Virus record (IMG/VR): IMGVR_UViG_3300034404_000014
Span: 1 to 25,878 of that record
Length of the DNA: 25,878 bases
Reading direction: 5' to 3' (one strand)
Source of the DNA: a virus
Shown: positions 989 through 19,721 of the stretch, piece after piece
Numbering within the stretch: the first letter of the stretch is position 1
Layout of the letters: every line of letters starts with the position of its first letter
Program-made: the position numbers and the translations under genes
Notes under the pieces: generated by a model
Told to the model about the DNA's origin: nothing
Database searches by the model: none
What the model saw: only the letters and a program-made list of their open reading frames with translations

Positions 989-1045
989 ATGGAGGAGGGT
1001 TATAAACAGTATAAGCAAGTTTTGAAAAAAATCAAGAGGAGGTGA
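989..1045 (+). CDS. Possible 18-aa leader peptide coupled to the next gene
   Basis: ATG 989 follows AGGAGGAGGTGCT. The frame encodes MEEGYKQYKQVLKKIKRR and stops with TGA at 1043-1045. Its last codons (AAG AGG AGG TGA) are themselves the SD of the gene starting at 1050. Ribosomes translating it would therefore end on the next gene's initiation site, a typical coupling arrangement. The peptide is basic. Its coding is plausible but cannot be settled from length alone. Confidence 0.4.
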   Translation: MEEGYKQYKQVLKKIKRR

Positions 1046-1049
1046 GGTT

Positions 1050-1262
1050 ATGTCTACGAGTTTTAGATTGTTTCCCGAGGCGTGTATTGAAAAGATAGTG
1101 GAGTGTGCTATTGAAGAGGGTAAGTTGTTTGAGTTGCTTTTTACGGATGAGGGTAAAAAGCTATGGGAGAGGTGGGGCGAGGATAGGATTAGGGCTTTAG
1201 TGATGCAGAAGCTGGGTATTAAGTTTGAAGAAGGAAAAAAACAGAGGAGGTGGCGGAGATGA
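1050..1262 (+). CDS. Small charged protein of unknown function, 70 aa
   Basis: Starts at ATG 1050 behind AAGAGGAGGTGAGGTT. The protein (MSTSFRLFPEACIEKIVECA...) looks all-helical, with a strongly basic C-terminus (KKQRRWRR) whose codons carry the SD of the next gene. Its TGA overlaps the ATG at 1259 as ATGA, so the two genes are translationally coupled. I see no catalytic motif. It could be a small DNA- or RNA-binding regulator by charge, but the family is unrecognised. Confidence 0.7.
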   Translation: MSTSFRLFPEACIEKIVECAIEEGKLFELLFTDEGKKLWERWGEDRIRALVMQKLGIKFEEGKKQRRWRR

Positions 1263-1513
1263 AGAGAGAAGAGAGGTTAGAGAAAATCAGAAGTGAGCTA
1301 CAGGATTTTGAGAGGTGTTTGAATGAGGCGAATGGTAATGTAGCGGTTGCTTTTGATAGGTGGTTAGAGAGTTGGCGTATGTTAGGGGTAGTTGAGGCTA
1401 TATGGTATTGGGTGAATATGGGTTGGACGGAGGAAGAGGTGCGAAATGAGTTGGAAGAAGTATATAAGTTAATAGATGAGGAGTTAGCAAAAATAAAAGC
1501 GGAGGAGGTGTAG
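1259..1513 (+). CDS. Small acidic helical protein of unknown function, 84 aa
   Basis: The ATG at 1259 is preferred over the GTG at 1250, because that GTG is part of the SD AGGAGGTG itself. The protein starts MKREERLEKIRSELQDFERC. It is almost wholly charged helix, with an aromatic centre (EAIWYWVNMGW) and an acidic C-terminus (DEELAKIKAEEV) that again encodes the next SD. It overlaps the previous stop by ATGA and precedes the next gene by 2 nt, so 1050-2010 reads as a tight three-gene unit. No family recognised. Confidence 0.7.
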   Translation: MKREERLEKIRSELQDFERCLNEANGNVAVAFDRWLESWRMLGVVEAIWYWVNMGWTEEEVRNELEEVYKLIDEELAKIKAEEV

Positions 1514-1515
1514 CC

Positions 1516-2010
1516 ATGGTTGAGAGGAGGGATGATTTTTTGGTGCAGATTTTGGGGGATTATAACCGTATTAATGGCAGGAAGATTTTAGAGGCGTTAC
1601 GGAGGTTTGAGTTTAATCATGAGGCGAAAACCTTTGAAAGGGCATGTCTTGAGAAAGCGGTTCAGTATTTAGAGCAAAAGGAAGAGCTTACTGATGAAGA
1701 GGTTTTAGCGTTGCTCATTCGTCTTTGTATGATGCATTTTGTGCAGGAGGGGCACCGCAAAAATTTGTGGTTTCTTATAATGGCGGGGTTACTTCCGCAA
1801 GAGATACAGCAGGCGAAGATGAGCGAAGTAGTGCTGAAGTTTGAGGAGCAGTTTATAGAGTATATGGAGATGATAAGTGCGTTGCGAGGGGATGAAGTGG
1901 TTAGGGATGCGGTGTTGTTTTTTTTGTTTCAAGAGAATGCGGATTTTATTTTTGCGGTGTTTCAGGCGTCTGATATGTTGTTATCGGGTGTAAAGAAAAT
2001 GTTGCATTAG
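1516..2010 (+). CDS. Helical protein of unknown function, 164 aa
   Basis: The ATG at 1516 follows GGAGGAGGTGTAGCC. The protein (MVERRDDFLVQILGDYNRIN...) appears all-helical and acidic, with hydrophobic stretches LLIRLCMMHFVQ and AVLFFLFQENADFIFAVF. The second could be buried core or a short membrane-associated helix. There are no Cys pairs or Walker motifs. It is the third gene of a closely spaced trio (1050, 1259, 1516) and is followed 25 nt later by the small gene at 2036. Function unknown. Confidence 0.75.
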   Translation: MVERRDDFLVQILGDYNRINGRKILEALRRFEFNHEAKTFERACLEKAVQYLEQKEELTDEEVLALLIRLCMMHFVQEGHRKNLWFLIMAGLLPQEIQQAKMSEVVLKFEEQFIEYMEMISALRGDEVVRDAVLFFLFQENADFIFAVFQASDMLLSGVKKMLH

Positions 2011-2035
2011 ACTAAAAACAGAGGAGGTGGGAGCG

Positions 2036-2176
2036 ATGAAGAAAGAACTACAGGAACCCAAATATTTAACACTCTGGAAAGATGGCAAATTAATTTTCCT
2101 AAAAAGAGAGGAGTTTGAGCGTCAAGGGATTGTGAAAAAAATAACGAGGTATTTAAAAAAGTTGATTAGGCGTTAA
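2036..2176 (+). CDS. Small basic protein, 46 aa
   Basis: The ATG at 2036 lies behind GAGGAGGTGGGAGCG and the frame ends with TAA at 2174-2176. The protein begins MKKELQEPKYLTLWKDGKLI and ends in a basic amphipathic stretch (VKKITRYLKKLIRR). The N-terminal part reads like a short beta hairpin (LTLWKDGKLIFLKREEF). The strong SD and the position between a coding trio and tRNA-Arg support real coding. Function is unknown; nucleic-acid binding is possible from charge. Confidence 0.65.
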   Translation: MKKELQEPKYLTLWKDGKLIFLKREEFERQGIVKKITRYLKKLIRR

Positions 2177-2186
2177 ATTTTAAGAA

Positions 2187-2260
2187 GCCCCTGTAGCTCA
2201 ACAGGATAGAGCAGCGGATTTCTAATCCGCGGGTTGGGGGTTCAAATCCCCCTAGGGGCT
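2187..2260 (+). tRNA. tRNA-Arg (anticodon UCU)
   Basis: The complete cloverleaf can be read by eye. The acceptor stem is GCCCCTG (2187-2193) with TAGGGGC (2253-2259), one G-U pair. T8 A9 are followed by D-arm GCTC/GAGC (2196-2199, 2209-2212). The anticodon stem is GCGGA/TCCGC with loop TTTCTAA (anticodon TCT at 2221-2223), and the T-arm is GGGGG-TTCAAAT-CCCCC (2236-2252). CCA is not encoded and the discriminator base is T, unusual for Arg. It decodes AGA, used freely by genes in this window. It lies just upstream of the ring nuclease gene. Confidence 0.95.
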
Positions 2261-2293
2261 TATAACGAAAAAAAAACAGAAGGGGGTGGAGCT

Positions 2294-2626
2294 ATGCTTT
2301 ACATTTTCAACACACTAATTATACCTGTGGATTTTCAAAACAAACAGGGGTATGTTGTCTCTTTATGGAAAATCGACTTAGAGACAGCTCGCAAGATTGT
2401 TAAAGAGATAAGGTTTACATCGGCAGTCGGCCACGAGGCGACTGCCAAAGTGCTCACGGAGCTTCTTGGGGTAGAAATTCCATACAACCGCATCACTGTA
2501 AAAATGGTGGAAGGTGATGCGGGTCTTCATTTTGTCCTCAGGACGAGGTTGCCTGAGGGCAAAGTCTTATCTGAGGAGGAGCTCAGGCAATTAGACTTCG
2601 ACCTTGTTCTTAGCCGAGTATGCTAA
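2294..2626 (+). CDS. acrIII-1: DUF1874 cA4 ring nuclease, AcrIII-1-type anti-CRISPR
   Basis: 110 aa from ATG 2294 behind AGGGGGTGGAGCT; the upstream in-frame start at 2234 would lie inside tRNA-Arg. The protein opens MLYIFNTLIIPVD, as DUF1874 proteins do. It carries the family signature FTSAVGHEATAKVL, with catalytic His at residue 47, then PYNR (Arg66) and RTRLPEG (Arg85, Glu88). In SIRV1 gp29 (AcrIII-1), His47 and Glu88 are active-site residues. That enzyme cleaves cyclic tetra-adenylate, the second messenger made by type III CRISPR complexes, and so shuts off Csx1/Can1-like effectors. Length and residue numbering match without gaps in the core. Host CRISPR-associated Crn2 proteins share the fold, but the phage context favours the anti-CRISPR role. 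It sits between two tRNA-type genes. Confidence 0.92.
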   Translation: MLYIFNTLIIPVDFQNKQGYVVSLWKIDLETARKIVKEIRFTSAVGHEATAKVLTELLGVEIPYNRITVKMVEGDAGLHFVLRTRLPEGKVLSEEELRQLDFDLVLSRVC

Positions 2627-2636
2627 GTAAGCTAAA

Positions 2637-2712
2637 GCGGGCTTAGCTCAATGGAGAGCGTCCCTAAGGATAAGACCTTAGGGGAGGAGGGGTTCAATTC
2701 CCCCAGCCCGCT
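2637..2712 (+). tRNA. tRNA-like gene with expanded anticodon stem, identity unassigned
   Basis: The acceptor stem GCGGGCT (2637-2643)/AGCCCGC (2705-2711) is perfect. T8 A9 and the D-arm GCTC/GAGC (2646-2659) are normal. The T-arm (2688-2704, loop TTCAATT) has four good pairs plus one A-C. The anticodon arm is abnormal: CCCTAAGG (2662-2669) pairs perfectly with CCTTAGGG (2676-2683), an 8-bp stem around a 6-nt loop ATAAGA. A weaker shifted fold gives a 7-nt loop with T33 and anticodon AAG (Leu). CCA is not encoded and N73 is T. It may be a degenerate tRNA, a specialised tRNA, or a tRNA mimic. Confidence 0.6.
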
Positions 2713-2743
2713 TTTAAAAAAAATCAAAAAGGAGGTAGGAGTT

Positions 2744-3511
2744 ATGCCAACAGTAATTGATGTCAGCATTACATACATTACACCCATTCTTGGTATTAAT
2801 CCCATTGATGACATCGGCACAGCTTATTTTGAGGAGCGTATCAAAAAAGAAATCGAAAAAATAGAGAAGAAGTTATCGAAGGTAAAAGATGACAATGAGA
2901 GGCAAGCTTTAGAGATGAGACTTGAGCGGTTGCAGCAGGAGCTTATGGGAATGACAAACGGTGAGGAAGATGAGTTTGAGAATAAAAAAGTTAAGGTATT
3001 TCTTCGCAATCAAGAGGGTGCTTTGTGTTGGAGCCATCATCAGGTTAAGGGGCATCTAAAAGAGATAGTTCAATACAGGATGAGTGAGAGTTGGTTGCGC
3101 AATGCAATATCGAGGTTTGTTGATATTTTTCCGTATGGATGGGATATTGAGAGGGGAATAAGTTCGGAGGCGGATTTAATACCTATTTTGAGAAATGGAG
3201 AACCGATAAAACAGCCAGATAGCATTTTGTCGAGACCCCTGACATCTTGGGTAGGGACACAGAGGATAGTTACAATATCAAGTTCAGAGTTGATAAATCT
3301 GCCAGCGGAATTGCAGTTTAGGGTAGTCATTTGGGACATTGAGAAAAAGGACAAAATACCTACTCCAGAGCATATTCAAAAAATCTTAAGTTATGGCATT
3401 CAGTGGGGGCATTCGGGGTGGCGGACTGCGAGGTATGGGCGGTATGAAGTGAAGGAGTTCAAGGTAGTATCTGGAGAGAGGAAGATGAAGAAGATTGTGG
3501 TAAAGAAATAG
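2744..3511 (+). CDS. Possible RAMP/Cas7-like RNA-binding protein, 255 aa
   Basis: ATG 2744 follows AAGGAGGTAGGAGTT; the longer frame from 2651 would run through the tRNA-like gene. Residues 28-68 are a charged coiled coil. Residue 82 onward reads as a beta strand followed by HHQVKGHLKEIVQ (about 98-110), comparable to the strand-then-GxxLKG helix of Cas7/Csm3-type RAMP proteins. Near the C-terminus, ELINLPAELQFRVVIWD is followed by a helix and WGHSGWRTARYGRYEV (about 220-235), which resembles the RAMP glycine-rich loop. I infer a RAMP-like fold from this pattern; it is not proven. Next to a ring nuclease, an RNA-binding decoy or inhibitor of type III complexes is conceivable. Equally, it could belong to an uncharacterised phage family unrelated to CRISPR. 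Confidence 0.75.
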   Translation: MPTVIDVSITYITPILGINPIDDIGTAYFEERIKKEIEKIEKKLSKVKDDNERQALEMRLERLQQELMGMTNGEEDEFENKKVKVFLRNQEGALCWSHHQVKGHLKEIVQYRMSESWLRNAISRFVDIFPYGWDIERGISSEADLIPILRNGEPIKQPDSILSRPLTSWVGTQRIVTISSSELINLPAELQFRVVIWDIEKKDKIPTPEHIQKILSYGIQWGHSGWRTARYGRYEVKEFKVVSGERKMKKIVVKK

Positions 3512-3915
3512 GAGGAGAAACGAGGCAAGATTTAGCGACGAGTAACGAGTTAGTAAAGTGGGAAACTATGACAACTTATGGTGTAGAGTGGGGGATGGGT
3601 GCTGAGAGATGTGTCGTTAAGTAAGGGAGTTGAGAGGAGGTAAGATGTTTAGAATGGAATTGGTAAAGAAGGGTGGAATGAGGTGGCGGTTGTGAGGAGA
3701 GCTAAGCAGAATAGTAGAGGTAAGAAAAAGGAGCAGTAGAGGTGTTGTTATGAGAGGATTGGTTGAGGTTGTGAATTGAGGTTGTCTGGGTAAAGAGTTG
3801 TAGCGTCAGGAGTTGTAGTGGTGAAGTGTGGAGGTGTGCGGAGATGGTGAGGTGGGAAATGGACATGAGGTGTGATGAATTGGTGAAGAACTATGCTAAA
3901 ATAGGGGGTGGGGCT
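3512..3915 (+). other. 404-nt stretch without a convincing gene
   Basis: The plus strand here is strikingly G-rich and C-poor, with repeated GAGGTG/GGTTGTG/GTAGTG words. No long frame has an SD. The best candidate is a 16-codon ORF (ATG 3645, SD GAGGAGG, stop 3693-3695). An 18-codon ORF at 3568-3624 has no clear SD. It may be a decayed gene, an untranslated leader for the gene at 3916, or a replication-related region. I found no clear promoter, iteron or hairpin in it. Confidence 0.6.
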
Positions 3916-4128
3916 ATGATTGTCAAACTTGGCAGTGCTTATATTAATCTCTATTTAGTTCCTATCGTAGAATTCGACAGGGACGATGAAAACAGAGAAA
4001 GAGTGATTTTTTGGCTACATCAGGGACCTGTTGCTTATGTGAAAGGAGAAGAAGTTTCAGAAGAAGAATTCGCTAAGTTAAAAGAAGCATTAGAAGTTAT
4101 GAAAAAAGGGGTTGTTTCTTGTCTATAA
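3916..4128 (+). CDS. Small beta-rich protein of unknown function, 70 aa
   Basis: ATG 3916 lies behind AGGGGGTGGGGCT; an upstream frame extension to 3826 has no SD. The protein begins MIVKLGSAYINLYLVPIVEF. It shows strand-strand-helix organisation: two beta strands, a hydrophobic strand ending ERVIFWLHQG, then an acidic linker (GEEVSEEE) and a helix. Its second half looks like that of the protein at 7867-8100 (VRFWFRSG...EVTEEE plus helix), so the two may be paralogues. It immediately precedes the primase gene. Function unknown. Confidence 0.65.
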   Translation: MIVKLGSAYINLYLVPIVEFDRDDENRERVIFWLHQGPVAYVKGEEVSEEEFAKLKEALEVMKKGVVSCL

Positions 4129-4151
4129 TTTAAAATTTGTGGAGTTAAAAA

Positions 4152-6896
4152 ATGAGCGAGTTAAAAAAGTTTTTGCGCTTGTATCGAAAGTATGGTCTTG
4201 TTGTAATACCTCTCGCTCAACTCTCTAAAGTTCCTATTAAAGGATTTGATTTAGAAAAAGTCTACGATACAGGACAGGTGGAATATTATTGGGAGAAGCA
4301 TCAAGGCAATATAGGCATAGTATCTGGATTTAACAATTTGCTGATTATTGATTGTGATAGTCCTGAGGCTATTACTTGGTTTGAAGCTCAGGAAGAGTTT
4401 ATCCCGACAGTCACAGTTAAAACTCGCAGGGGACATCATTATTGGTATGGGCTTTACAATGTTCCTGAGAACTTTGAGAGGCGGTCAATTAAGCTTTCCG
4501 ACCCTGATGAAGTGTTCAAGATTGAATTTTTGTTTGGTCGAAGGTATGCAGTAGCGCCCCCTTCTGAAGTTCGACACAATGGAACCATTTATAAGTATGT
4601 CTTCATAGATGGTTACGATGTCATAAAGCATGAGCTTAATATTGCTTTGCTTGATTTTGAGGCGTTCAAAAAGCTCCTTGTAAAAGCGTATAAGCGTTCA
4701 GGTAAAGAATACGAAACGGAAAGAGTTCAGGCTAATGTTCAAGTATTTGCTCCGAAAGTAGGCGATGAAACGAAGGTATCAAAGTTTTTGCAGATAGTCG
4801 AGCTTTGCAAGAAATATTACACAGAAGGGGTTCGACAAACGATTTGGTTAGGGCTTTCAGGAATTGCAAGAAAGTTGCATTTGCCGAAAGAGGTCGTTGA
4901 AGACATTTTGCGAAAGGAGCTTTACGAAGGGTTGAATGATGATGACAGCATAAAACAGCGGTTGTCTGCAATTGAAGAGACCTACAAGAAGTCAATTGAA
5001 GAAGTAGCAGGCATTAGCATTCTTACTCAGCAAGTTTTTAATGAAGAGGATGCCCGAACGGCTCTTTACATTTTAGGAAGGTTTGGCAAACCGAAAGTTT
5101 CAGGGGTTCCCGTTTTTACGGAAGATGACCTTGGTCGAGCCCAAGAAGTTATCAAACATGGAACTAAATTATTTGCGTTGATAGAGAATGACTGGTATTT
5201 GCTGACTGAGAATGAAAAATCAGAAAAAGATGAGAAAAGGATTAAGAAACTGAAGCCTGTTTGTGCTGGATTTTTATTGAAAGACAGAGGGTTTAAGTTT
5301 TCGACAAATGAACCTATTTACATTATTTATAACTGCGAGACCCGCAGAACAGGAAGGATAACTTTGGATATTAATCGTTTGCAAAATTTTCTTGGACGAC
5401 CTATACTTGATACGCATAATGTTAAATTTTTGCTTGATGCTTTGATAAGAAATCATCAAGAAAAGCTCTTTGTTTCAGAAATTGGTTGGTTTAAGACGGG
5501 GAGCAAGCGAGTATTTATACATCCTCTTAATCAAAGTGCTCTTCTTGAGTATGGTTTATATTGTGATCTTGACCCAAAAGATGTAGAGCATTTTAAATAC
5601 ATCAACGCTTCGAAACAGCATGAAATAGTGAGAGAGCTTTTGGTTGAAGGGCTTTGGTTGGGAGTTAAGATAGTTTTAGGTGTGGCAAGTTTATTTATAG
5701 ATGAGAACATAGCAGGTTTTACTGTTTTTGATGTAGGACCTCGTGGAGTAGGGAAAACTACAACATCTCAGTTTATTATGAGTTTATTTTACAATATCAA
5801 TGTTCCGATGACTTTGAATGCTACAGAGACAGGGTTTGAGTTATATATGAGAAAGTTTCATAATTTGCCTGTTCTTTTTGATGAGACGGCGTTAATTTCA
5901 GACAGCAAGCTTCAGGAGCGTGTTTTTAAGATAGCAGGTGGGATGGGAAAGTTAAGAGGCACGAAAGATTTATCGATTGACATTACGCTACTAAAATCAG
6001 TAGTATTTGTGACAGGTGAAGTAGATCCGCAGTTTGAGAGGAGAGGTGCGGAAAGGCGTTATGTTATAGTTCCTGTAGATCACTGGGGGAACTATACGAT
6101 GAAATATGATCCGCAGACATTACATCAGGTTATGCGGTCAGCTTGCGGGGCTGGATTTGATTACATAAAGTTTTTGGAGCAAGAGGGGGATGTAGAGATA
6201 GAAATTCCGATGCCTGAGCATTTTCAGATTTTTACTTTTACGAAGTTGATAGAGAAGAGCTTTAATTTTTTGAAGAAGTTTTACAATCTTTCACGGCAAG
6301 AGATTAGCGTTTTAGAGAAAAATCTTTATGCATTGTTGAGTTATCAATTAGAAAAGCTTGATTTAAGTTTGGAGAAAATTTTAGCGGATTTTGCTGAGTT
6401 CTTACTATCCAGAGCTCCGCATTTTGTCATTAGGAATTCATCGGTGCAACAGGTGCCCAGACACCATGTCTACGGTGAAATAGACCCACTTGCGGAGAAA
6501 GCTTATATTACACGGGAGTGTCTCGAGGACTTTAGAGATTTTGTGAAGCTTGATTTGAGGACTATATTGAAGCTTTTTGAAGAAGTGGAAGTGGTAACAG
6601 TGCATTACACAACAGATAGCACTGGAACGGTAAAGAGGTATACAAAGGCTAAACGGATTAAATACATGGAGACCGATATAGTGGCATCTGTGTATGAAAT
6701 CAATTTAAAGAAAATTTCGGAGGGGTTAGCATCTGATTTAGCTGGTGCAGTGAGACGGAGTGCAGGTCCTCCGAACCCTTTAGCTCAAATAATAACCATG
6801 CCTAAGGAAGAGGAGCCTAAGGAAGAGGAAGAGGAGCCTAAGGAAGACCTGAAAGAGATTAACATCCCAACCCCTGATGATAATTTACCTTTTTAG
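4152..6896 (+). CDS. Primase-polymerase/helicase replication protein, 914 aa
   Basis: The N-terminal ~160 residues match the bifunctional primase-polymerase (archaeo-eukaryotic primase) fold: LLIIDCDS gives the metal-binding Asp67/Asp69, RGHHYWY gives His96/His97, and IEFLFGRRYAVAPPS gives the third acidic residue Glu126. The C-terminal half is a DUF927-like ATPase/helicase with Walker A GPRGVGKT (529-536, Lys535), Walker B LPVLFDE (Asp577, Glu578) and an arginine-finger region ERRGAERR (629-636). Such proteins prime and unwind DNA at phage and plasmid origins. The last 30 residues are Pro/Glu/Lys repeats ending PDDNLPF, very like the acidic tip of bacterial SSB. The SD before ATG 4152 (TGGAGT) is weak compared with its neighbours. 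No DNA polymerase is seen next to it. Confidence 0.9.
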   Translation: MSELKKFLRLYRKYGLVVIPLAQLSKVPIKGFDLEKVYDTGQVEYYWEKHQGNIGIVSGFNNLLIIDCDSPEAITWFEAQEEFIPTVTVKTRRGHHYWYGLYNVPENFERRSIKLSDPDEVFKIEFLFGRRYAVAPPSEVRHNGTIYKYVFIDGYDVIKHELNIALLDFEAFKKLLVKAYKRSGKEYETERVQANVQVFAPKVGDETKVSKFLQIVELCKKYYTEGVRQTIWLGLSGIARKLHLPKEVVEDILRKELYEGLNDDDSIKQRLSAIEETYKKSIEEVAGISILTQQVFNEEDARTALYILGRFGKPKVSGVPVFTEDDLGRAQEVIKHGTKLFALIENDWYLLTENEKSEKDEKRIKKLKPVCAGFLLKDRGFKFSTNEPIYIIYNCETRRTGRITLDINRLQNFLGRPILDTHNVKFLLDALIRNHQEKLFVSEIGWFKTGSKRVFIHPLNQSALLEYGLYCDLDPKDVEHFKYINASKQHEIVRELLVEGLWLGVKIVLGVASLFIDENIAGFTVFDVGPRGVGKTTTSQFIMSLFYNINVPMTLNATETGFELYMRKFHNLPVLFDETALISDSKLQERVFKIAGGMGKLRGTKDLSIDITLLKSVVFVTGEVDPQFERRGAERRYVIVPVDHWGNYTMKYDPQTLHQVMRSACGAGFDYIKFLEQEGDVEIEIPMPEHFQIFTFTKLIEKSFNFLKKFYNLSRQEISVLEKNLYALLSYQLEKLDLSLEKILADFAEFLLSRAPHFVIRNSSVQQVPRHHVYGEIDPLAEKAYITRECLEDFRDFVKLDLRTILKLFEEVEVVTVHYTTDSTGTVKRYTKAKRIKYMETDIVASVYEINLKKISEGLASDLAGAVRRSAGPPNPLAQIITMPKEEEPKEEEEEPKEDLKEINIPTPDDNLPF

Positions 6897-6910
6897 GAGG
6901 AGTTGACAAA

Positions 6911-6970
6911 ATGGAAAATCAAGTTATATTACAAGCAAAAGCAAAAACTAAAAAGGAGGTGGAGCCATGA
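6911..6970 (+). CDS. Possible 19-aa leader peptide overlapping the next start
   Basis: ATG 6911 sits behind AGGAGGAGTTGACAAA. The peptide MENQVILQAKAKTKKEVEP ends with a TGA that overlaps the next gene's ATG as ATGA. Its last codons (AAG GAG GTG GAG CCA) are the SD and spacer of that gene. The arrangement suggests translational coupling. An identical KEVEP ending occurs in the partial frame at 2-127. Length alone cannot prove coding. Confidence 0.4.
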   Translation: MENQVILQAKAKTKKEVEP

Positions 6971-7599
6971 ACGAGCCTTTCAACACAACAGCCCAGAACG
7001 GGCAGTCTCAAGAGGTAGTTGACACTCAAATTATCACCAACGGGGATCCTGTTGTAGAGGCGTCTTCTGGGTTACCTTCAGTAGTTGAGGAGAAGGATTA
7101 CTTCGTTGAGGAGATAGAAAAAGCTGAAAAGAGGCTTGAAGCTCTTGCTAAGCAGAGGATGCTCATTCTCAAGCTTACGAGACCTTACGACTGGGTCAAT
7201 TTTGGGGGTCGAGCTTATCTTTCAGCATACGGAGCGGAACGCTTAATGCTCCTATTCAACATTTCTTACAAGATTGGGGAGCCTGAAATCAAATACGACC
7301 CTGATGGGCACTTTACAGTTATCTTTCGGGGCACTTTTACTTGGGGCGATAAAACCATAGAGGAAATCGGTATTCGTTCTTCCAGAGACCCCTTCTTTAG
7401 TAGAGCAAAAGGACAAAACATTCCACCGCATCAAATCAGGCTTTCTGATGTTATCAAGTCGGCAAGGTCTAATTTGATTGCGAGGGGGGTATCTACGCTG
7501 TTAGGGTTAAGGGGGTTAAACATTCAGGATGTTACAAAAATGGTTGGGAAAATAGAACAACAGGTTGAGTTCAAGTCCAAGGAGGTAAAAAATGGATAG
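6967..7599 (+). CDS. Candidate single-strand annealing (recombination) protein, 210 aa
   Basis: ATG 6967 follows AAGGAGGTGGAGCC. After a polar ~45-residue N-terminus and a short helix, the core reads PYDWVNFGGRAYLSAYGAERLMLLF, a stretch of beta strands, IGIRSSRDPFFSRAKG, then SDVIKSARSNLIARGVSTLLGLRGL. The final segment resembles the helix of Rad52-like annealing proteins (KAAxxDALKRALRxxG), and a similar layout occurs in uncharacterised phage proteins. The RecB-like nuclease gene lies two genes downstream, and phage annealing proteins are normally paired with an exonuclease. Both points are suggestive only. An unrelated DNA-binding protein is possible. Its stop overlaps the next ATG by 8 nt. 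Confidence 0.85.
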   Translation: MNEPFNTTAQNGQSQEVVDTQIITNGDPVVEASSGLPSVVEEKDYFVEEIEKAEKRLEALAKQRMLILKLTRPYDWVNFGGRAYLSAYGAERLMLLFNISYKIGEPEIKYDPDGHFTVIFRGTFTWGDKTIEEIGIRSSRDPFFSRAKGQNIPPHQIRLSDVIKSARSNLIARGVSTLLGLRGLNIQDVTKMVGKIEQQVEFKSKEVKNG

Positions 7600-7879
7600 A
7601 CCGATTAAAGACATAGTAATTCGAGACATACGCCGAGCAACAGGGTCTCTTTTGCAAAGATTAGAAAACGTGATGAATTCATACGCTTATACAGCATGCA
7701 ATTACATCATGGCAGATATGATTGAGAAAGCAAAATATTATGTTAAGCTTTTTTATTACGCAAGGAGCTTGTTTTTAAGAGAACTTGACAAAGCGATTGA
7801 AGAGCTGACAACAAAGACAGAAAATATTGAAGTGCTTGATAAAAAAATTAAAGAGGAGGTGAGAAAGTGGCATTCATAA
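7592..7879 (+). CDS. Small helical protein of unknown function, 95 aa
   Basis: ATG 7592 overlaps the previous stop (ATGGATAG), and the SD AAGGAGG lies inside the end of the previous gene. The protein begins MDRPIKDIVIRDIRRATGSL. It is all-helical with many aromatic residues (YAYTACNYIM, YYVKLFYYARSLF), then an acidic/basic coiled C-terminus whose codons contain the GAGGAGGTG of the following gene. There is no catalytic motif. It is embedded between a candidate annealing protein and a nuclease, so a partner in DNA recombination is a reasonable but untested guess. Confidence 0.7.
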   Translation: MDRPIKDIVIRDIRRATGSLLQRLENVMNSYAYTACNYIMADMIEKAKYYVKLFYYARSLFLRELDKAIEELTTKTENIEVLDKKIKEEVRKWHS

Positions 7880-8100
7880 TTATTGGAGATGATGAAGACA
7901 TCCTAAGACAAGATGACATAGTTGCAGTAACTTTTGGCAATAAGAAAAAGCATCCAAATGAAGCAGATGTTCGTTTCTGGTTTAGGTCAGGGTTTTATCT
8001 TGACTATACTGAAGTTACGGAAGAAGAAAAACAGCAAATAAGAAAAATTTTTGAGGAGCAATTGGGCACTATAAAAATTGGCGGGAAAAGAAAAAAATAA
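7867..8100 (+). CDS. Small protein of unknown function with GTG start, 77 aa
   Basis: A GTG at 7867, 8 nt after GAGGAGG, is the only start that fits; the frame overlaps the previous gene by 13 nt. The protein begins MAFIIIGDDEDILRQDDIVA. It has beta strands (IVAVTFGN, VRFWFRSGFYLDY), an acidic turn (TEVTEEE), a helix, and a basic tail (KIGGKRKK). The strand-turn-helix part resembles the 70-aa protein at 3916-4128. Function unknown. The pattern is common among small phage proteins of the replication region. Confidence 0.7.
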   Translation: MAFIIIGDDEDILRQDDIVAVTFGNKKKHPNEADVRFWFRSGFYLDYTEVTEEEKQQIRKIFEEQLGTIKIGGKRKK

Positions 8101-8115
8101 AAAAGGAGGGCTAAA

Positions 8116-9108
8116 ATGATAGTAGAAAAAATCAGAGAAAAATATCAGCCAGTGCAATTCCCAATTAATAGCAACAGATGTTCTTCTTTGGGGCATCCTT
8201 GTCTTAGATATTTAGTCTTTGAAAGACTGCATTGGGATCAAAAGGCACCTTTGCCTACTTCAGTGCTTATGAAAATGGAAATGGGAAAATTAATTGAACG
8301 ACAGACCATCATCGACTTACTCCAAACTGGCTTCGAAGTCATCCATCAGCAAGTTCCCTATTTTCTTAGAGAATATCAAATCTCTGGAAAGATAGATGGG
8401 AAAATATTAACCAACGGAAAGGTGCATGCTATTGAAATCAAGTCGATGGAAAGTTGGAACTTGAGAAAGTTTAATAAGGCTGAGGACTTCTTAGAGGCAG
8501 ATAAGTTTTATTACAGAGGCTACTATCACCAGCTCAATCTGTATCTTTACATGATGCGTGAACAAGGCGAGAAAATAGAAGGTGGCATCTTTATTCTGAG
8601 AGGTTTCGACGGCTCTTGGAAAGAAATTCACATGTCTTTGGATGAGGACCGAGCTTTAGAAATTCTGGAAAAAGCTAAAAAAATTAACGAGCATGTAGAG
8701 AAAAGAACCTATCCAGAGCCACTCTGGAGAACTAATCCAGATGATTTGGCTACTTGTCTCGTTTGCCCATATAAACACATGTGCCTGACTGAAATGCAAG
8801 GAGCTGAAAAAATCATCTTTCGTGAAGATAACGAGCTTCTCATGATGCTAAAAGAAAGAGCTGAGCTTGAAGAATATGCCAAGAGATACGAGGAATTAAC
8901 CGAAAAAATTAAAGAAGCTTTTACCATCCCAAAAGACATGCAAGCAGAAATGCTTAACAGAAATGAAACCGAGAAGTTTTATGTTGTTGATAAGTTCGTT
9001 ATCAAGCAAAAGCTCTATTGGCAAACTGAATATCAAGTGCCTAAGGAAATTAAACAGCAATACGCTGTCAAAGCTCCACGGTGTAGAATAACGATTGAAA
9101 CTCTGTAA
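8116..9108 (+). CDS. RecB/Cas4-like PD-(D/E)XK nuclease with putative Fe-S cluster, 330 aa
   Basis: ATG 8116 follows AAAAAGGAGGGCTAAA. The nuclease core is visible: ISGKIDG (Asp94), AIEIKS (Glu107, Lys109), and the RecB motif QLNLY (Gln139, Tyr143). Cys22 or Cys29 in the N-terminus and Cys214, Cys217 and Cys223 (CLVCPYKHMC) are spaced like the four cysteines that hold the 4Fe-4S cluster in Cas4 and AddB nucleases. The family digests DNA ends, usually 5'-3'. Here it probably makes the 3' single strands used by an annealing protein (candidate at 6967). The C-terminal ~90 residues are helical with no recognised domain. It is a stand-alone nuclease, not fused to a helicase, as is common in phages. 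Confidence 0.88.
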   Translation: MIVEKIREKYQPVQFPINSNRCSSLGHPCLRYLVFERLHWDQKAPLPTSVLMKMEMGKLIERQTIIDLLQTGFEVIHQQVPYFLREYQISGKIDGKILTNGKVHAIEIKSMESWNLRKFNKAEDFLEADKFYYRGYYHQLNLYLYMMREQGEKIEGGIFILRGFDGSWKEIHMSLDEDRALEILEKAKKINEHVEKRTYPEPLWRTNPDDLATCLVCPYKHMCLTEMQGAEKIIFREDNELLMMLKERAELEEYAKRYEELTEKIKEAFTIPKDMQAEMLNRNETEKFYVVDKFVIKQKLYWQTEYQVPKEIKQQYAVKAPRCRITIETL

Positions 9109-9110
9109 AA

Positions 9111-9755
9111 ATGGGCAAAGAACGCAGAATAGGCAATCGTTTTTTATATGCCTTCCATGATGTTATTTATACAACGATGACCTTAATGTTTATTGAGCAT
9201 GTGAAAAACAAGAAGACGTTTGAAGAAGTCTGGCAAACCATCATGCGAGAATTCAATATCAACCTCGTTGACTTCAAAAATTTAAAAGAGGTCCTGAAGG
9301 CTGAAGCGACCTTTTTCAGGAAGCTTAAAGCGAAATATGCCAAAATGTTTATTCCTCCTGACCTTCAGGACCTCGCTTGCGAAGTAAGGGTGCTTTACCT
9401 TTACTTCCTTCTAAAATTCCCTAAAGAAATGGCAAAAATGTGGGCTACTCTGTATGGCTTAATTCACCCCATCTTTTTACAAAACCCTCTACCTATTGCT
9501 CTCTTAGTCCTTACAGATGCCTTAGCCATCAGAAAACTTCAACGCTTCTACACAAGAGATAAACTCGAAAGAGCATTTGAAAGATTAAAAACCAAAGGCA
9601 TCCTCAGAGGAGAAAAAATGACTTTCGATGAACTTTTGTCTAATTTTGTCGTTGAAGAAGATAATATCGTCGACAATTACATTCTGCATCGTTACGAAGT
9701 AGCAAAAAAAGAAGAAGAACTTAAGAAAAAGAAGACAAAAACAGTTCTGATTTAA
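9111..9755 (+). CDS. Helical protein of unknown function, 214 aa
   Basis: ATG 9111 is 2 nt after the nuclease stop and has no SD of its own (CTCTGTAAAA), so it probably depends on coupling. The protein begins MGKERRIGNRFLYAFHDVIY. It is helical, with hydrophobic aromatic stretches (VRVLYLYFLLKF, NPLPIALLVLTDALAI) and a C-terminal basic run (KKEEELKKKKTKTVLI). I see no catalytic motif and do not recognise it. Its stop overlaps that of the convergent terminase gene. Confidence 0.75.
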   Translation: MGKERRIGNRFLYAFHDVIYTTMTLMFIEHVKNKKTFEEVWQTIMREFNINLVDFKNLKEVLKAEATFFRKLKAKYAKMFIPPDLQDLACEVRVLYLYFLLKFPKEMAKMWATLYGLIHPIFLQNPLPIALLVLTDALAIRKLQRFYTRDKLERAFERLKTKGILRGEKMTFDELLSNFVVEEDNIVDNYILHRYEVAKKEEELKKKKTKTVLI

Positions 9756-11503
9756 TGTATCGGGATAGTAACATTCCCAATCCTAATAACCTTTTGCCCT
9801 GAAGAAAAACTCTGCTTCAATGAATGCACTCTTCCTCGAATATACCTTACCCAATACTCAACTGCTAAAGCTCCTGCTATTACTCTGTCATCATGAAATC
9901 CACTTTCAGCCTCAATTACCGACCCATCCTTAACTACTTTTGCCATCTCTTTTAGCAAAGCTCTCGACCTTATCACAGTTTTTTTCTCATGAACACAACC
10001 CTTAAACATCTGCATCAAATCAACTTTCAGGTCAGGAGTTGTCTTCCAATGCCTCAAAAAGCTTCTCCTAAAGCTGTCAGCTCTGTAATAAAGATAGTCC
10101 CGCATGTATCTGATATTATTCTGAAGAACTTCTTTAGTAATGTCATCCATCACAACTTCAGGCACCCAACTTTGAGCTCTCAAATAGTCAAACTCTTTCA
10201 AAGTGGATTGCCCAGGTCCCGTTACTTCCAAATTTACATAAGCCCCATTATAAAGCCCACCTAAAAGCAAAATATACCGAGCAAAAATCTGAGGAGGGAC
10301 TTGATTATCTACAAATTCAGCAACCTGAATTATTTTGTCCTCTTCGCAACGCCAAATAGAAATCACAGCGTTATCACTATCAGGATTAGCTCCCATTGTC
10401 GGATCAGCCCCCAAAACATAAACACAATGAGCCGATGGAAACTCCCAAACAGTCAAATTTGCTTTATCCGAACCAGTCTCCTCAAACACAAATCTTTCCC
10501 CATCATAAGTAAGCCTGTAGTATTTTTCTTTGATAGTCCCATTCATCAATTCTTTTTTAATCTCCTCTTCATACTGTTTCAAAATGACAGCATCAAAGAA
10601 CCTATCTCCAGAAAGTTGAAAAGCTTGGTCTTCAAAAAAGGGTAACTCCTGCAAAGCATACATCTTATGACCACGATATCTATCCCACATCTGATATCGC
10701 CACCAAGCCAATTGCTCCATCGTTATCTCATAACCATATAACTGCTTCACCGCCTTAAGCCACTCTTTCTCTTCTTTGTTCGGCGGATAAGAATAATGCT
10801 TGTAAATATTGCTATCAGGTTTTAAACGATAAGTCTCTTTAGTCCACCAACCAATGAAGACAGCTTTCATCGCAGGAGAAGTCTTCGCTATCTCATAGAG
10901 GTCATAAAACTCATTATATCCATTAGCCGTGCTTTCATAGATATAAAGCCTATAAGGATGCACATCAGAAAGAGAAGCTTGCATCGCATTTAAGTCATCC
11001 CAAGAGTTAAAATAAGCAACCTCAGTTGCATGAAGATAATTATAACCCCTACCACGACCAGCCTTACCTTGTCCTGTAACCCGCTTCGAAGTGTAAATGA
11101 AGTGAATAGTAGAATTGTTAGCAAATCGCAAGCCTTCTCTTGAACTATGCGTCAACATCACCCTAACCTTTTCATCAAGCATATCATAAAAATCATGAAT
11201 AATGGTTTTTCTAATGTAATCAATGTCGTTGTAGTTAGCTACAAAAACAGCTCCCTTAGAGTTCGAAATGTATTGATGGTAAAAAAGAGTTAGAGCGTTG
11301 CAAAGAGAAGTGATGCCAAGCTGTCTTGCTTTGAGAACTACAAAAGTTCGCTGGTCGTCATCTGCAGTATAAATAGCCTTGAGCAACCACTTCTGAGAGC
11401 CCCACCATTTGTCAGGACTAAATTTAATAAGACCATAATCTTTCGAGTTGATTTTCAGATACTTTGACCACGCCCAGAATTTCTTGATTAGCTCTTTTAA
11501 CAT
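9752..11503 (-). CDS. terL: Terminase large subunit (DNA packaging ATPase/nuclease), 583 aa
   Basis: The ATPase part shows the variant Walker A of many terminases (LKARQLGITS, about 57-66), Walker B with catalytic Glu161 (YLHATEVAYF) and the coupling motif IYESTANGYNEFYD. The C-terminal nuclease has VLGADPT (metal-binding Asp near 366) and GFHDDRVIAGALA (Asp-Asp near 537). It pumps DNA into the prohead through the portal and cuts the concatemer. Length is normal. Its ATG overlaps the preceding small gene by 7 nt (ATGTTAA). It is the last gene of the minus-strand late block, as gene 19 is near the end of the T7 late block. Confidence 0.95.
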   Translation of the reverse strand: MLKELIKKFWAWSKYLKINSKDYGLIKFSPDKWWGSQKWLLKAIYTADDDQRTFVVLKARQLGITSLCNALTLFYHQYISNSKGAVFVANYNDIDYIRKTIIHDFYDMLDEKVRVMLTHSSREGLRFANNSTIHFIYTSKRVTGQGKAGRGRGYNYLHATEVAYFNSWDDLNAMQASLSDVHPYRLYIYESTANGYNEFYDLYEIAKTSPAMKAVFIGWWTKETYRLKPDSNIYKHYSYPPNKEEKEWLKAVKQLYGYEITMEQLAWWRYQMWDRYRGHKMYALQELPFFEDQAFQLSGDRFFDAVILKQYEEEIKKELMNGTIKEKYYRLTYDGERFVFEETGSDKANLTVWEFPSAHCVYVLGADPTMGANPDSDNAVISIWRCEEDKIIQVAEFVDNQVPPQIFARYILLLGGLYNGAYVNLEVTGPGQSTLKEFDYLRAQSWVPEVVMDDITKEVLQNNIRYMRDYLYYRADSFRRSFLRHWKTTPDLKVDLMQMFKGCVHEKKTVIRSRALLKEMAKVVKDGSVIEAESGFHDDRVIAGALAVEYWVRYIRGRVHSLKQSFSSGQKVIRIGNVTIPIH

Positions 11504-11769
11504 AGCTCATGATACTTAATAAAATATTCAAGCAAAAGATAACCAACTTTGCCATAATGATGTATCAAGTAGCCTCCCACCTGTTTTGCTCGAGTAAATA
11601 AATCAGCATCATATCTACTGTCTACTTTTTCGCCTTTCCCTAAGACAAATGGCATAAGCTCCTCAAGTATCTTTGTAGCAATAATCCTTCGCCTTGCAGG
11701 ATGGGCACTCTCAAGCAAAGTATAAAACATCTGAATAAGCTTGAGTGTCTCTTTGTCAGGATTAATCAT
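11497..11769 (-). CDS. Putative terminase small subunit, 90 aa
   Basis: The protein opens MINPDKETLKLIQMFYTLLE. It is a compact helical, moderately basic protein (HPARRRIIATKILEEL; KQVGGYLIHHYGKVGYLLLEYF) directly upstream of and overlapping terL. In T7-type phages the small terminase lies between the holin and terL, the position held here. No sequence motif proves it, and 90 aa is about the length of T7 gp18. The start is an ATGATTAA overlap with the previous gene. Alternatively it is an unrelated small helical protein. Confidence 0.8.
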   Translation of the reverse strand: MINPDKETLKLIQMFYTLLESAHPARRRIIATKILEELMPFVLGKGEKVDSRYDADLFTRAKQVGGYLIHHYGKVGYLLLEYFIKYHELC

Positions 11770-12004
11770 TCTTGCGCTTATAAAAAATCGGAAAATAACT
11801 GATAGCTAAAAACCCTAACACAGGCAAAGTAAAAAGAATATCTTTGGACATCGCCTCATAAAACAAATAAGCAGACAAAGAAGTCGTATAGACATAAAGA
11901 ACATTTTTCATGTTTGCCAAAATGCCAATTAAAATACTTACAAAAGACCCTACAACTTTACTATTTTTGTTTGGGGTCTCAGAAGTAGTTTTCTGTTTGG
12001 GCAT
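11762..12004 (-). CDS. Holin-like membrane protein, 80 aa
   Basis: A polar N-terminus (MPKQKTTSETPNKNSK) is followed by two or three hydrophobic segments (VVGSFVSILIGILANM; VLYVYTTSLSAYLFYEA; ILFTLPVLGFLAISYFPIF) and a charged end (YKRKND). Size and layout fit a class II/III holin, which makes lesions in the inner membrane to time lysis. In T7 the holin gene (17.5) lies directly before the small and large terminase, the same place as here. No endolysin is seen nearby, which weakens the lysis reading. SD AGAGGGG lies upstream. Confidence 0.8.
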   Translation of the reverse strand: MPKQKTTSETPNKNSKVVGSFVSILIGILANMKNVLYVYTTSLSAYLFYEAMSKDILFTLPVLGFLAISYFPIFYKRKND

Positions 12005-12017
12005 TATTTACCCCTCT

Positions 12018-12497
12018 TTAAGTTTTTTTCTTCACAATCCCCCTCAAAATCTGCTCTAAAGTTACTACGCTGTCACCTACCTTGTTTTTTATTTTTTCTT
12101 TTTGCGAGACGAGCCAATCATCAGAGGCCCCCACTTCATCTTCATTGTCCTCAATTTCTTCTTCAATTTCTTCATCGTCATCGGTGTCAAAATCTTCTTC
12201 CTCATCTTCTTCTCCTTCCTCTTCTCCTTCAATTTCTTCTTCTATTTCTTCGTCTTCTTCGTCTTCTATCCCTAAAATCTTTTCAATATCATCATCCTCA
12301 AACTCTGCTTCTAATTCCCCTGCTCCTTGAGCTATCATATTCAAATCCCCAGCTGTCTTAATCGCATTCCTAAACTCTCTCGTCAACAATACTCCTCTAT
12401 CTATGTCCCCCTCTTGAAAAGCTTCCTTAGCTTTTTCAAGTATAACCTCAGCTAATATCTTTAACTCCTCTGCTAATTCCTTCCAAGTCTTAGGCAT
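12018..12497 (-). CDS. Strongly acidic protein of unknown function, 159 aa
   Basis: The start follows GAGAGGAGGTGAAATA. The first ~65 residues (MPKTWKELAEELKILAEVIL...) form charged amphipathic helices. Residues ~70-125 are nearly continuous Glu/Asp (GEEEGEEDEEEDFDTDDDEE), and the C-terminus returns to a mixed sequence (KNKVGDSVVTLEQILRGIVKKKT). It overlaps the stop of the 1295-aa gene's frame region by one base and precedes the holin-like gene. Acidic low-complexity proteins can act as scaffolds, chaperones or DNA mimics. Nothing here decides among them. Confidence 0.8.
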   Translation of the reverse strand: MPKTWKELAEELKILAEVILEKAKEAFQEGDIDRGVLLTREFRNAIKTAGDLNMIAQGAGELEAEFEDDDIEKILGIEDEEDEEIEEEIEGEEEGEEDEEEDFDTDDDEEIEEEIEDNEDEVGASDDWLVSQKEKIKNKVGDSVVTLEQILRGIVKKKT

Positions 12498-15400
12498 TAT
12501 TTCACCTCCTCTCTCATTTGTTTTTCCTGAATTCTTCTTTCTATAACCTCAGGTAAATCTCTCTTCGCTATAGTTTTATATGCATCCCATAACTCACTAT
12601 TAAACCGCTTCCTAATAGTCCGCCATAAATCATGCTTCATCTTATCAGGTAAAGCTGATGCTTCTATATCCTCCTTTATCAAAAGCAAAATATCCTCCGC
12701 TCCTTCCTTAATCTCACTAAAATCTCTGTGAGCATTTTTTCGCAACCATGGATGCATGTAATAATTATAATACGCATGACTTAAAGAAGCAAGCAAGCTT
12801 TTGTATACATCCTGAGATTTGCCTACTTTTAGCCCAAACTCCTTTTTTAGCTCTCTTTCTGCCTGCTTTATCTCTCTGTAATTTTGCAACCATCGAGTTA
12901 AAATCTCAGAAACCACCTGTTCTCTGTGCCTGTTTTCAAATAACAGATAAGTTAAATTATCCCGCACCTGAGTTTTTAAACCTACCATATTAAAAACACT
13001 CGCAACTCTTATTACTTCTCTTACTTCAGGTGTTCCCTTGTAAGGATACCTGAGCGTTCCAAACATCTGCACTAACGCAAGCGGAGCAAAATCTTGAATT
13101 GCTTCCAAAAAAATCTCCTGAGCTGTAGGAGCTTCCTCTTTTACAGAACCAAATTTGGGTCTCGTTGCTTCATACATCTTTATAAAAAACCTCATTATCA
13201 TACTTGCTTTTCTATACCAAAACTCAATCCACTCCCCTAACGTTTCTAAACTGACTTTCAAAATCCGCTGGTCAAAACTCATAGTAGGATGAGAAAGAGC
13301 TGTATATAAATTCCTCATGAATGGCAAAATTCCAACCATCTCCAAGGGCTCAATATCAAACCCTAAAAGGTTAAAAGTAAACACTCTGTGATGCCCCCTA
13401 CTATCCACTATAGGAACATGAAGCTTAAACAGTTCAGGCCAATCTTTTAAAAATAATCTTAACCACTCCTTGGGATCTCGCAAATTATAATTATCCCACA
13501 AAGAATGACCATTAAACGCATAATTAGCGTAAACAGACAAATAAAACCTCATCCTCAAAATAGCAGGGAAAAAGTTCATAACCAAAGGAGCATCACCATG
13601 CAACCAAGTTCTAAAGTTATGGAATAAAGTCAAATACCAATCAGGAGCAAACAAAAGCAATCTGTAAAGCTGTGCTCGATTTGGATTAACATAATACCAA
13701 GTATGCAAACCACCATAAATGTAGTTAATAGTGTTCAAATTCTTGACCAAATCATCAGCAGTTAGCAAGCCCTTCTTATAAGCATTAACCAAAGTATATG
13801 CTGTTCTCAGCTTCAACGCTTGGAAATAACCAGCCCAAAGCCATCTCTCAAAACCATGAATTGCATTCAACACCTTATCTGCTTTTAATTTAAGCTCATA
13901 TTTCTCAAACTCTTTCATCAACTCTTTAAAAGCTTCCGCATCCCCCTTCTGTAATAACTCATGAAGAATGTTTTTCCCTGTCAATATATAATTGCCCCAT
14001 AAAGCTTCTCCTTCATTCCATCCAGATAACATAATCTCATTAACCTTATATCCTTGCTTAGTTAATTGATTGATTGTTTCAGCTACTTCTTTCGCCATAT
14101 AACCAAATTCAGGATGGCTTAACCCTCGAAAAGTAACTTGCAAACTATCCATTAAAGCCCTTCCTACAATATCCCAAGCAGTAATCTTATAATTCCCTTT
14201 CAACGCCAAACCAGATAAACTTAACGCTGAAGCATGGAAGAAAGGGGATAGAAATAAGAAAGCCCTTTTCCATAAACGGTTAATAGTATACACTTTACTT
14301 TCTTGCCAAGCTCCAGATGTTCTACCCGTTATTGCTATGAAATAATCCTTCAAAGCATCAAGCATCCCACCCGTCATCTTGACCTTCTTGTCCATTAAAG
14401 TGAATTCATGAACTTTTGTCAATGGATCACCAAGTTTCGCAACTATTTCTGGATGCGCTAAAATTTCATCAATGTGATTGTAAAGATTATGCATGAATTG
14501 AGGCACTATAAACTTATTCGCTATCCATTTAGGAATAGTTAACCCGCCAGTAAACCCAAACTCTTTCAAAACAGCCTCAGCTAATTTTTCTGGTTCATGC
14601 ATTAAATTAGGATGCTTGATTAAAGTTCTTACTATTGTGCTCGGAATACCAATTACTAAAACATCTTCAATACTGTTGTAGAAACGGGGCTTCAATACAG
14701 AATAAGGATGATGACGCATCATGAATTTATACACGCTGTCTGAATAAATACGGTCAATATCTAAAGGCTCCAAAATATCTTGCGGAGTTGCTTCCTTTAG
14801 TCCTAACCTACGTAAAGGATGCTTAAACCCTAAGCGTGGTATATATTGCTCAAAAAATTGCTCAACAATCGGCACATATTCTCTTTGCCACAACTTCTGT
14901 AAACCTTTATAATCGCCTTTCATCAAATTCCAAACTCTGTTCCTGATAAAGAAAAAGTCAGTCCCATGTTTATATGCATACTCACCTAATGTCTCTAAAA
15001 ATGCAGAAAAACTTTGCTCTCTTTTTTTCACTAAGTTTTGAACCATCGAACCAAGCTTCTTTGTGTCAACATTAACTTTTAATCCTTCAATTAATAAAGC
15101 AAATGGGTCATGCCCATGTGATTTAAGAAGCGGTTCAAATAGATAATGTAAAATAACAACCCTACCAGTTCTGTATTTTTTCATTCCCTCTTCTTCATAA
15201 AGACGCCTCATAAAATATAAAGCCAACTTGTTTAACTGTCTTTCTTCTTTTGGTTTACCCTTCAGTGTCAATTCAGGTCCTCTCGCTCTCTTAACAGCAC
15301 CAAGCGTCATACGCCAAGCATTCTCAACAAATGCCTTTTTGCTATCTTCCCAAATCCCCCCTAAATCAGCTTTTATTTTTGCCCAAAACAAATCCCTGAA

Positions 15401-16384: not shown

Positions 16385-16395
16385 TGTTCATTGTT

Positions 16396-16419
16396 AAAAA
16401 GTCATTTCGATGACTTTTT
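16396..16419 (-). terminator. Perfect 10-bp hairpin between virion genes, terminator-like
   Basis: On the minus strand, AAAAAGTCAT is followed by CGAA and ATGACTTTTT: a perfect 10-bp stem with a tetraloop, ending in five T. It includes the stop codon of the 436-aa gene and ends 11 nt before the ATG of the 1295-aa gene. The stem is symmetrical, so it could act on either strand. It may attenuate transcription into the longest gene or set its translation. The GC part of the stem is short, so termination may be weak. Confidence 0.55.
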
Positions 16420-17712: not shown

Positions 17713-17715
17713 TTT

Positions 17716-18465: not shown

Positions 18466-18755
18466 GTTTTCACCTCCTCTAAATCTCTAAACCATATTAT
18501 CCGTTTTATATCTTCTTGCTTCCATCTTCGACCCAACTCCCTAAATACAGAAAACTTTGGCTTCCCATAACATTTAAGCAACCAAACTTCATCCTTAGGA
18601 GCATCCATCTTCGCTAAAAACTCCTCAGCTGTTTTTGCTTGCCTTAGTTCCTCATTAGTATAAACCCAAATTAAAAACATTTCATCATCAGCATAAAACC
18701 ATCCCAAATCTATACAAGCTTTAATTAAATCCTGCAAACGCTTTACACTGTCCAT
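18453..18755 (-). CDS. Small protein of unknown function within the virion cluster, 100 aa
   Basis: The protein opens MDSVKRLQDLIKACIDLGWF. It is rich in Trp, Glu, Lys and Asp (ADDEMFLIWVYTNEEL, KDEVWLLKCYGKPKF), with no membrane segment, and looks like a small alpha/beta domain resembling an acetyltransferase-like phage protein by general look only. It overlaps both neighbours by 13 nt, so it belongs to the virion operon. Its SD (AGGA, 5 nt from ATG) is weaker than average here. No family recognised. Confidence 0.75.
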   Translation of the reverse strand: MDSVKRLQDLIKACIDLGWFYADDEMFLIWVYTNEELRQAKTAEEFLAKMDAPKDEVWLLKCYGKPKFSVFRELGRRWKQEDIKRIIWFRDLEEVKTWVL

Positions 18756-19336: not shown

Positions 19337-19337
19337 C

Positions 19338-19715: not shown

Positions 19716-19721
19716 CTTCTA

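Follow-up and report, generated by a model that had tools for sequence, protein, structure and literature searches.

A conserved SSB-like tip at the C-terminus of a phage Prim-Pol/DUF927 primase-helicase and its possible role in SSB mimicry

The IMG/VR virus record IMGVR_UViG_3300034404_000014, of a hot-spring phage, was analysed over 25,878 nucleotides (positions 1 to 25,878, the whole stretch being called the window here), and this study concerns the C-terminal end of the primase-helicase that it encodes. The gene lies on the plus strand at 4152-6896 and specifies a protein of 914 aa, with the stop codon at 6894-6896. In a Pfam scan of this protein a Prim-Pol domain was found at residues 10-149 (4179-4598, plus strand; PF09250, E 1.5e-13, 51.9 bits, cut-off 22.8) and a DUF927 helicase domain at residues 427-606 (5430-5969, plus strand; PF06048, E 8.6e-9, 35.9 bits, cut-off 22.6), together with a weak AAA_7 match. 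As both main domains exceed their curated cut-offs, the protein is a fusion of a Prim-Pol primase and a DUF927 helicase, a type described from mobile elements (PMC5862659). Its PHROG matches are DNA primase (1.3e-14) and DNA primase/helicase (3.8e-11). The stretch GPRGVGKTT at residues 529-537, inside the DUF927 domain, is invariant in all four aligned members of the family and is Walker-A-like. The Pfam scan detected no PF00436 domain, the OB-fold of single-stranded DNA-binding proteins (SSBs), in the 914 aa. The C-terminus reads ...MPKEEEPKEEEEEPKEDLKEINIPTPDDNLPF, in which an acidic linker, PKEEEPKEEEEEPKEDLKE (residues 884-902, 6801-6857, plus strand, residue 884 being encoded from 6801), precedes the tip INIPTPDDNLPF (residues 903-914, 6858-6893, plus strand) and then the stop. 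The first-pass annotation of this DNA had drawn attention to an acidic tail ending in PDDNLPF at 6801-6896, and the translation of the open reading frame (ORF) confirms both the tail and its position.

The window groups with Hydrogenobaculum phage 1 (NC_028651). Three full-length relatives of the primase-helicase were found (L001, L002 and L003), which are 84-85% identical to it; of these, L003 represents Hydrogenobaculum phage 1 in IMG/VR. Another relative, L011, aligns over residues 1-176 alone and stands outside the counts given here. The relatives end in INIPTPDDGIPF (L001), INVPTPDDGIPF (L002) and INIPMPEDDIPF (L003). Homologues might have lacked the last residues seen in the window. An SSB-type tip is, however, present in 4/4 full-length members, as PDDNLPF in the window, PDDGIPF in L001 and L002 and PEDDIPF in L003. 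Within the last twelve residues I, N, P, P, D, P and F are invariant among the four aligned proteins, whereas the linker ahead of them varies in length, order and sequence. Pairwise comparison of the four genes (six pairs) gave, for the last 12 codons, one to three synonymous and one to four amino-acid changes per pair, counts that alone do not prove purifying selection because the changes are too few; the amino-acid changes remain inside the range of SSB tips. Calculated from the protein's own composition, any one C-terminus would take the form [DE]Dx[ILV]PF by chance with a probability of about 4.7e-6, and among the 100 stop-to-stop ORFs of at least 60 aa in the window only the primase-helicase ends in PF followed by zero to two residues. 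Peptide patterns found no relatives in bacterial genomes, and a search of plasmids with the full-length protein was negative at E 0.01. By profile, distant relatives were detected in two of 112 Aquifex-order genomes; one (L117) is without the tip and the other (L118) runs off its locus.

The C-terminal tip of E. coli SSB (SSB-Ct) is DDDIPF. Like bacterial SSB-Ct, the window protein ends in acidic residues followed by [ILV]PF after a variable linker; unlike it, the tip sits on a primase-helicase without PF00436 and not on an OB-fold SSB. PF00436 was matched in 104 of the 112 Aquifex-order genomes. When 60 Aquificota SSB ends were read (PF00436 matches without a locus, taken in table order with the weakest omitted), 52 had the form [DE][DE][DE][ILV]PF, and the form of the tip, which had been likened to SSB from the outset, matches the SSB ends of this phylum, to which the host probably belongs, as well. 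The remaining eight Aquifex-order SSB-family ends deviate (VPL, IPW, LSF, IVF, IGF, ILL or LIL; L064, L065, L075, L080, L081, L084, L093 and L096). A heuristic detected an SSB-like ORF ending in this way at 26 of 32 further loci and gave no clear call at the other six. The SSBs of five genomes, G035-G039, which we take to be Hydrogenobaculum and the probable host cluster, end in DDDVPF. Comparison of window DNA 1000-20000 with these five gave a tRNA-like match in four of them and no prophage. About 32 bases at 19674-19705 match G039 at 91%; they are possibly a CRISPR spacer and hence a host link. Hydrogenobaculum phage HP1 has been linked to its host Hydrogenobaculum through CRISPR spacers (PMC7689252).

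Further phage helicases were reached through weak similarity to the helicase portion of the protein. Several of them carry SSB-type tips, some with one or two additional residues. The ends are DYEQEELPF (L297), DDTDDLPF (L320, Faecalibacterium phage FP_Epona), DEQEELPFK (L315, Roseburia phage Jekyll), TQEKLPFS (L316, a Ruminococcus phage), EQEELPFD (L269, an Anaerostipes phage), KDGELPFK (L304), TQDDEDVPF (L292) and GEQDLPF (L287). Where hosts of the tip-bearing helicases are named, they are Clostridia. DUF927 is over its cut-off in P0001, L268, L269, L270, L297, L298, L304, L315, L316 and L320, below it in L266 and L287, and unmatched in L267 and L292; the 13-member group that includes L266, L287 and L292 is therefore DUF927-like by weak similarity only. 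In six scanned helicases with the Cch winged-helix domain HTH_56 the tip comes shortly after this domain. In 395 Bacteroidota genomes DUF927 was matched in one, below cut-off, too little to serve as a survey.

For a count, 51 helicase loci were sampled, of which 49 remained once L311, at a contig end, and L321, whose stop comes 11 codons past the start of the match, had been removed; L278-L284, duplicate contigs of L297 and L304-L309, were left out, and L295, whose frame stops early, was counted as tipless. A relaxed tip was defined as [DE], up to three residues, [ILVM]PF and up to two residues. At 80% identity the 49 proteins fall into 34 groups, 12 with a relaxed and five with a strict tip, and at 40% identity into 11 groups, four of them with the tip. 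Other ORF ends in the same loci served as control (taken from stop to stop on either strand, with spurious ORFs among them) and gave 20 relaxed tips in 398 and two strict ones; read by their tails, the 20 distinct relaxed control ends are 15 of SSB type and five of hydrolase type. Leaving out the discovery group, relaxed tips occur in 11/33 groups against 20/398 control ends (p = 2.9e-6), in 11/33 against 5/383 once the 15 SSB-type ends are also removed (p = 4.6e-10), strict tips in 4/33 against 2/398 (p = 3.9e-4) and, a modest difference, tips in 3/10 of the 40% identity groups against 20/398 (p = 0.015), p-values which all overstate the case because the patterns were set after the tails had been seen and the loci were reached via tip-bearing seeds.

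Several DUF927 phages have an ORF ending in DGFMNIPDGxxEELPF(N) or similar at most about 1.1 kb upstream of the helicase. Nine SSB-type ends were scanned; the upstream ORF is a PF00436 match in L268, L298, L304 and L316, is annotated as SSB in the record of Roseburia phage Jekyll (L315) and has a weak SSB PHROG match in L297, and the SSB-type ends of L269, L320 and L323 are unconfirmed as SSB. In L298, L304 and L316 the PF00436 SSB lies just upstream and both SSB and helicase are tipped; in Roseburia phage Jekyll the SSB ends in ADGFMNIPDGIDEELPFN and the helicase in DGFMQISEDEQEELPFK. On the Eubacterium plasmid L323 the SSB-type ORF ends in PDDELPF and the helicase in LDDDF. The upstream SSBs of L304, L315, L316 and L298 have the tail DGFMNIPDGxxEELPFN in common, which extends one residue past the usual terminal Phe.

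SSB-like ends on other phage proteins were sought by scanning viral contigs for P-x-P-[DE]-D-x-x-P-F at gene ends. The true pattern was found in at least 119 stretches and a permuted control pattern in 28 in the whole collection. From these stretches 80 loci were analysed, and 65 distinct proteins of at least 70 aa were scanned, a sample that is biased because the pattern demands P-x-P. PF00436 was matched in 15 of the 65. SSB-like ends were also seen on SF2 helicases (phrog_16; L137, L176/L197), an Erf-type annealing protein (L175), a member of a phage DNA polymerase family (phrog_4210; L184) and AAA ATPases (phrog_249; L189, L124).

Neither the window nor four related records (19 to 43 kb, possibly fragments) gave a PF00436 match, and PolA and PolB were each matched in 0/5 of these records (Pol III alpha was not searched). 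The first-pass annotation had noted the absence of a phage DNA polymerase from the window; this agrees with the PolA and PolB result, but is not strictly right because the primase-helicase itself carries a Prim-Pol (primase/polymerase) domain. A hidden phage SSB was sought in the window, without a PF00436 match. The conserved early ORF at 2651-3511 (plus strand) encodes a product that is 81-85% identical in four relatives; it was set aside, since neither Pfam nor PHROG gave it a match over cut-off and its AlphaFold2 model is poor (mean pLDDT 46.9).

T7 gp4 combines a DnaB-type helicase with a TOPRIM primase, whereas the window protein joins a DUF927 helicase to a Prim-Pol primase and has its tip on the bacterial SSB consensus. 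The T7 gp4 tail is nevertheless the nearest precedent of the window tip: it belongs to a phage primase-helicase, is acidic and C-terminal, carries a terminal Phe and is reported to bind the polymerase (PMC5997990, PMC12230644). The partner there is the phage polymerase; no such partner is known for the window protein. SCCmec Cch, which contains DUF927 and is MCM-like (PMC7581432), and SaPIbov1 Rep share the DUF927 domain, and an SSB-like tip is not mentioned for either in the parts of the published descriptions compared here (PMC7581432, PMC5862659). HP1 is described as a peripheral member of the Pyrovirus gene-sharing network, whose Aquificae viruses likewise have a DUF927 helicase and a Cas4-like nuclease; according to that description the DUF927 domain is fused to PolA in TOSV and TGBSV, and the helicase is a separate ORF in AJCSV and ACSV (PMC7689252). 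In the window record, by contrast, PolA was unmatched and the helicase carries an SSB-like tip at its C-terminus.

Judged from sequence, we lean slightly towards the view that the last approximately 12 residues of the primase-helicase mimic the bacterial SSB C-terminal tip and thereby tether to the phage fork those proteins that have a pocket for the SSB tip. The flexible acidic linker would present the tip at the end of the primase-helicase, and the terminal Pro-Phe together with the acidic residues would dock in the pocket by which partners hold SSB. If the helicase forms a ring, as DUF927 relatives are thought to do, it would have several tips per ring with which to keep its partner at the fork. 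At least 12 proteins attach to the SSB tip in B. subtilis, including DnaE, PriA, RecG, RecO and RecJ (PMC3000357), and E. coli DnaG binds the SSB tip as well (PMC5872125). The most likely class of partner would lie among the host's replication proteins that extend or synthesise primers, because no PolA or PolB was matched in the phage records and DUF927 is reported to be fused to PolA in related Aquificae viruses. Host polymerase and primase are candidate partners, as is the probable Rad52-like annealing protein encoded by the phage, and the SSB-type tip may reach its partner here where TOSV and TGBSV use a PolA fusion. That the primase-helicase mimics SSB had been proposed in the first-pass annotation. 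The proposal is supported in part. It fits a tip that is kept, host-like and found in a phage in which no PF00436 SSB was matched; it was drawn too narrowly, in that other DUF927 helicases are tipped, also in phages that encode an SSB.

Several observations weigh against SSB mimicry, beside the inflated p-values of the survey. The tip is not universal among DUF927 helicases and is missing in 22 of the 34 groups. It is absent from the Pseudomonas-phage DUF927 proteins L270 and L322, from L324-L327 (Geobacillus, Antarctobacter and Streptomyces plasmids) and from the contigs L310 and L312-L314; in L299-L301 IPF is followed by 16-20 more residues, and L319 ends in EETPPF, a near miss that was not counted. 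In L268 the helicase ends in SDPVFD, tipless, beside a phage SSB that has the tip. Relaxed tips also stand on unrelated proteins, namely the five hydrolase-type ends (one of them, L299, scanned). The distant Prim-Pol phage proteins L271-L277 carry the tip in 0/7, and no DUF927 was found by Pfam in L277; that the tip tracks DUF927 rather than Prim-Pol is a lead, not a result (only L277 of the seven was Pfam-scanned). On the host side, RecO_C was over its cut-off in 0/5 of the genomes G035-G039, with a weak match in one, and PriA was matched in 5/5, always below cut-off, and the list of SSB partners given by the first-pass annotation (RecO and others) is therefore weakened. Pol III chi, also on that list, is a proteobacterial subunit.

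Foremost among the rival partners is a probable annealing protein that the phage itself encodes. Genes for a 210-aa protein (6967-7599, plus strand), which from structural likeness is probably a Rad52/Sak-like annealing protein, and for a Cas4-like exonuclease (8116-9108, plus strand; phrog_1990 Cas4-domain exonuclease, E 8e-47, annotated likewise in NC_028651) are located downstream of the helicase. The tip might recruit one or both of these candidate partners and so couple annealing to replication, an explanation we consider unlikely, though worth keeping in view. It is favoured by the position of both genes, which are kept beside the helicase in the three full-length relatives, by the likeness in fold of the 210-aa protein to Sak/RAD52, and by phage annealing proteins that are described as recognising the last residues of the host SSB, although the account in question covers RecT/Red-beta proteins and not the Rad52 type (PMC10711431). 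The 210-aa protein is 89-92% identical in three relatives, is labelled hypothetical in NC_028651 and has no Pfam or PHROG match. Its predicted model (mean pLDDT 67.6, ten-residue blocks ranging from 49 to 92 across residues 41-200) resembles Sak/RAD52 in fold: in VIA-align the first 10 of 50 rows are Sak of phage 80alpha or RAD52, with Z 7.8 to 6.6, all below 8, a range that can reflect a common arrangement, and an unrelated row follows at 6.3. Foldseek gave no match for the model at E <=0.001, its highest-ranking hits being a mixture of PX domains, RAD52 and Mgm101.

Acidic tails, for example those of SSB and T7 gp2.5, commonly compete with single-stranded DNA for a protein's own DNA-binding surface or regulate assembly. 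We regard it as rather improbable that the tail acts within the helicase in this way, the likeness to SSB being secondary, since such a role would not need the terminal Pro-Phe, which is invariant in 4/4 members and recurs elsewhere. More improbable still is that the acidic tail arose by chance or is neutral and binds nothing. The unrelated relaxed tips, such as that of a metallo-beta-lactamase-fold hydrolase ending in LDIIPF, and the tipless groups argue for it; against it stand a chance of about 5e-6 for such an end, its retention in all relatives despite the drifting linker and its enrichment among DUF927-type helicases. Hardly credible is a ClpXP degradation signal of the kind that C-terminal LPF provides in some Streptococcus mutans strains, where LPF alone rendered GFP degradable (PMC5143411): the window protein does end in LPF, but three of the four family members end in IPF, and LPF was unrecognised in E. 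coli, S. gordonii, S. sanguinis and three other S. mutans strains (PMC5143411).

SSB tips, acidic tails of primase-helicases and PrimPol-DUF927 fusions have all been described before. What was not found in the open-access literature, among the matches listed, is a DUF927 primase-helicase whose SSB-type tip is kept in relatives and recurs in the helicase family. If the tip does mimic SSB, a handful of residues would plug phage helicases into the bacterial SSB-binding hub. This would help to account for replisome assembly in a small phage that has primase and helicase but no recognised SSB, PolA or PolB, and it would extend the tail logic of T7 to another class of helicase. It would also provide a handle, testable at peptide scale, for finding replication partners of uncultured phages. 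More tentatively, and with somewhat less than even confidence, it can be speculated that mimicking the SSB tip is a strategy used repeatedly by the replication proteins of mobile elements, which would present the tip of either the host SSB or the SSB encoded by the phage itself; the helicase ring and SSB could then both hold one set of SSB-binding enzymes. The carriers would be DUF927 helicases and, from the motif scan, SF2 helicases, the Erf-type protein, the phage DNA polymerase and AAA ATPases. In the window family, for which no SSB was detected, the helicase would then be the sole phage-made carrier of the signal, with a peptide doing the job of the polymerase fusion reported for related Aquificae viruses.

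Some minor features of the window were noted as well. Seven bases past the helicase stop begins a promoter-like element, TTGACA-16-TATATT (11/12; 6903-6930, plus strand). Both hexamers stand 3' of the helicase gene in 4/4 family members with a spacing of 16-17, and the element may drive the annealing-protein and exonuclease genes. A tRNA-Arg (TCT) was placed by ARAGORN at 2186-2261 (plus strand); its surroundings match most of the 112 Aquifex-order genomes at about 75-87%, and it may be a phage tRNA or the remnant of an attachment site. The early genes on the plus strand and the terminase and structural genes on the minus strand converge tail to tail at about 9752-9755, where the ORFs 9111-9755 and 9752-11503 share a 4-base overlap.

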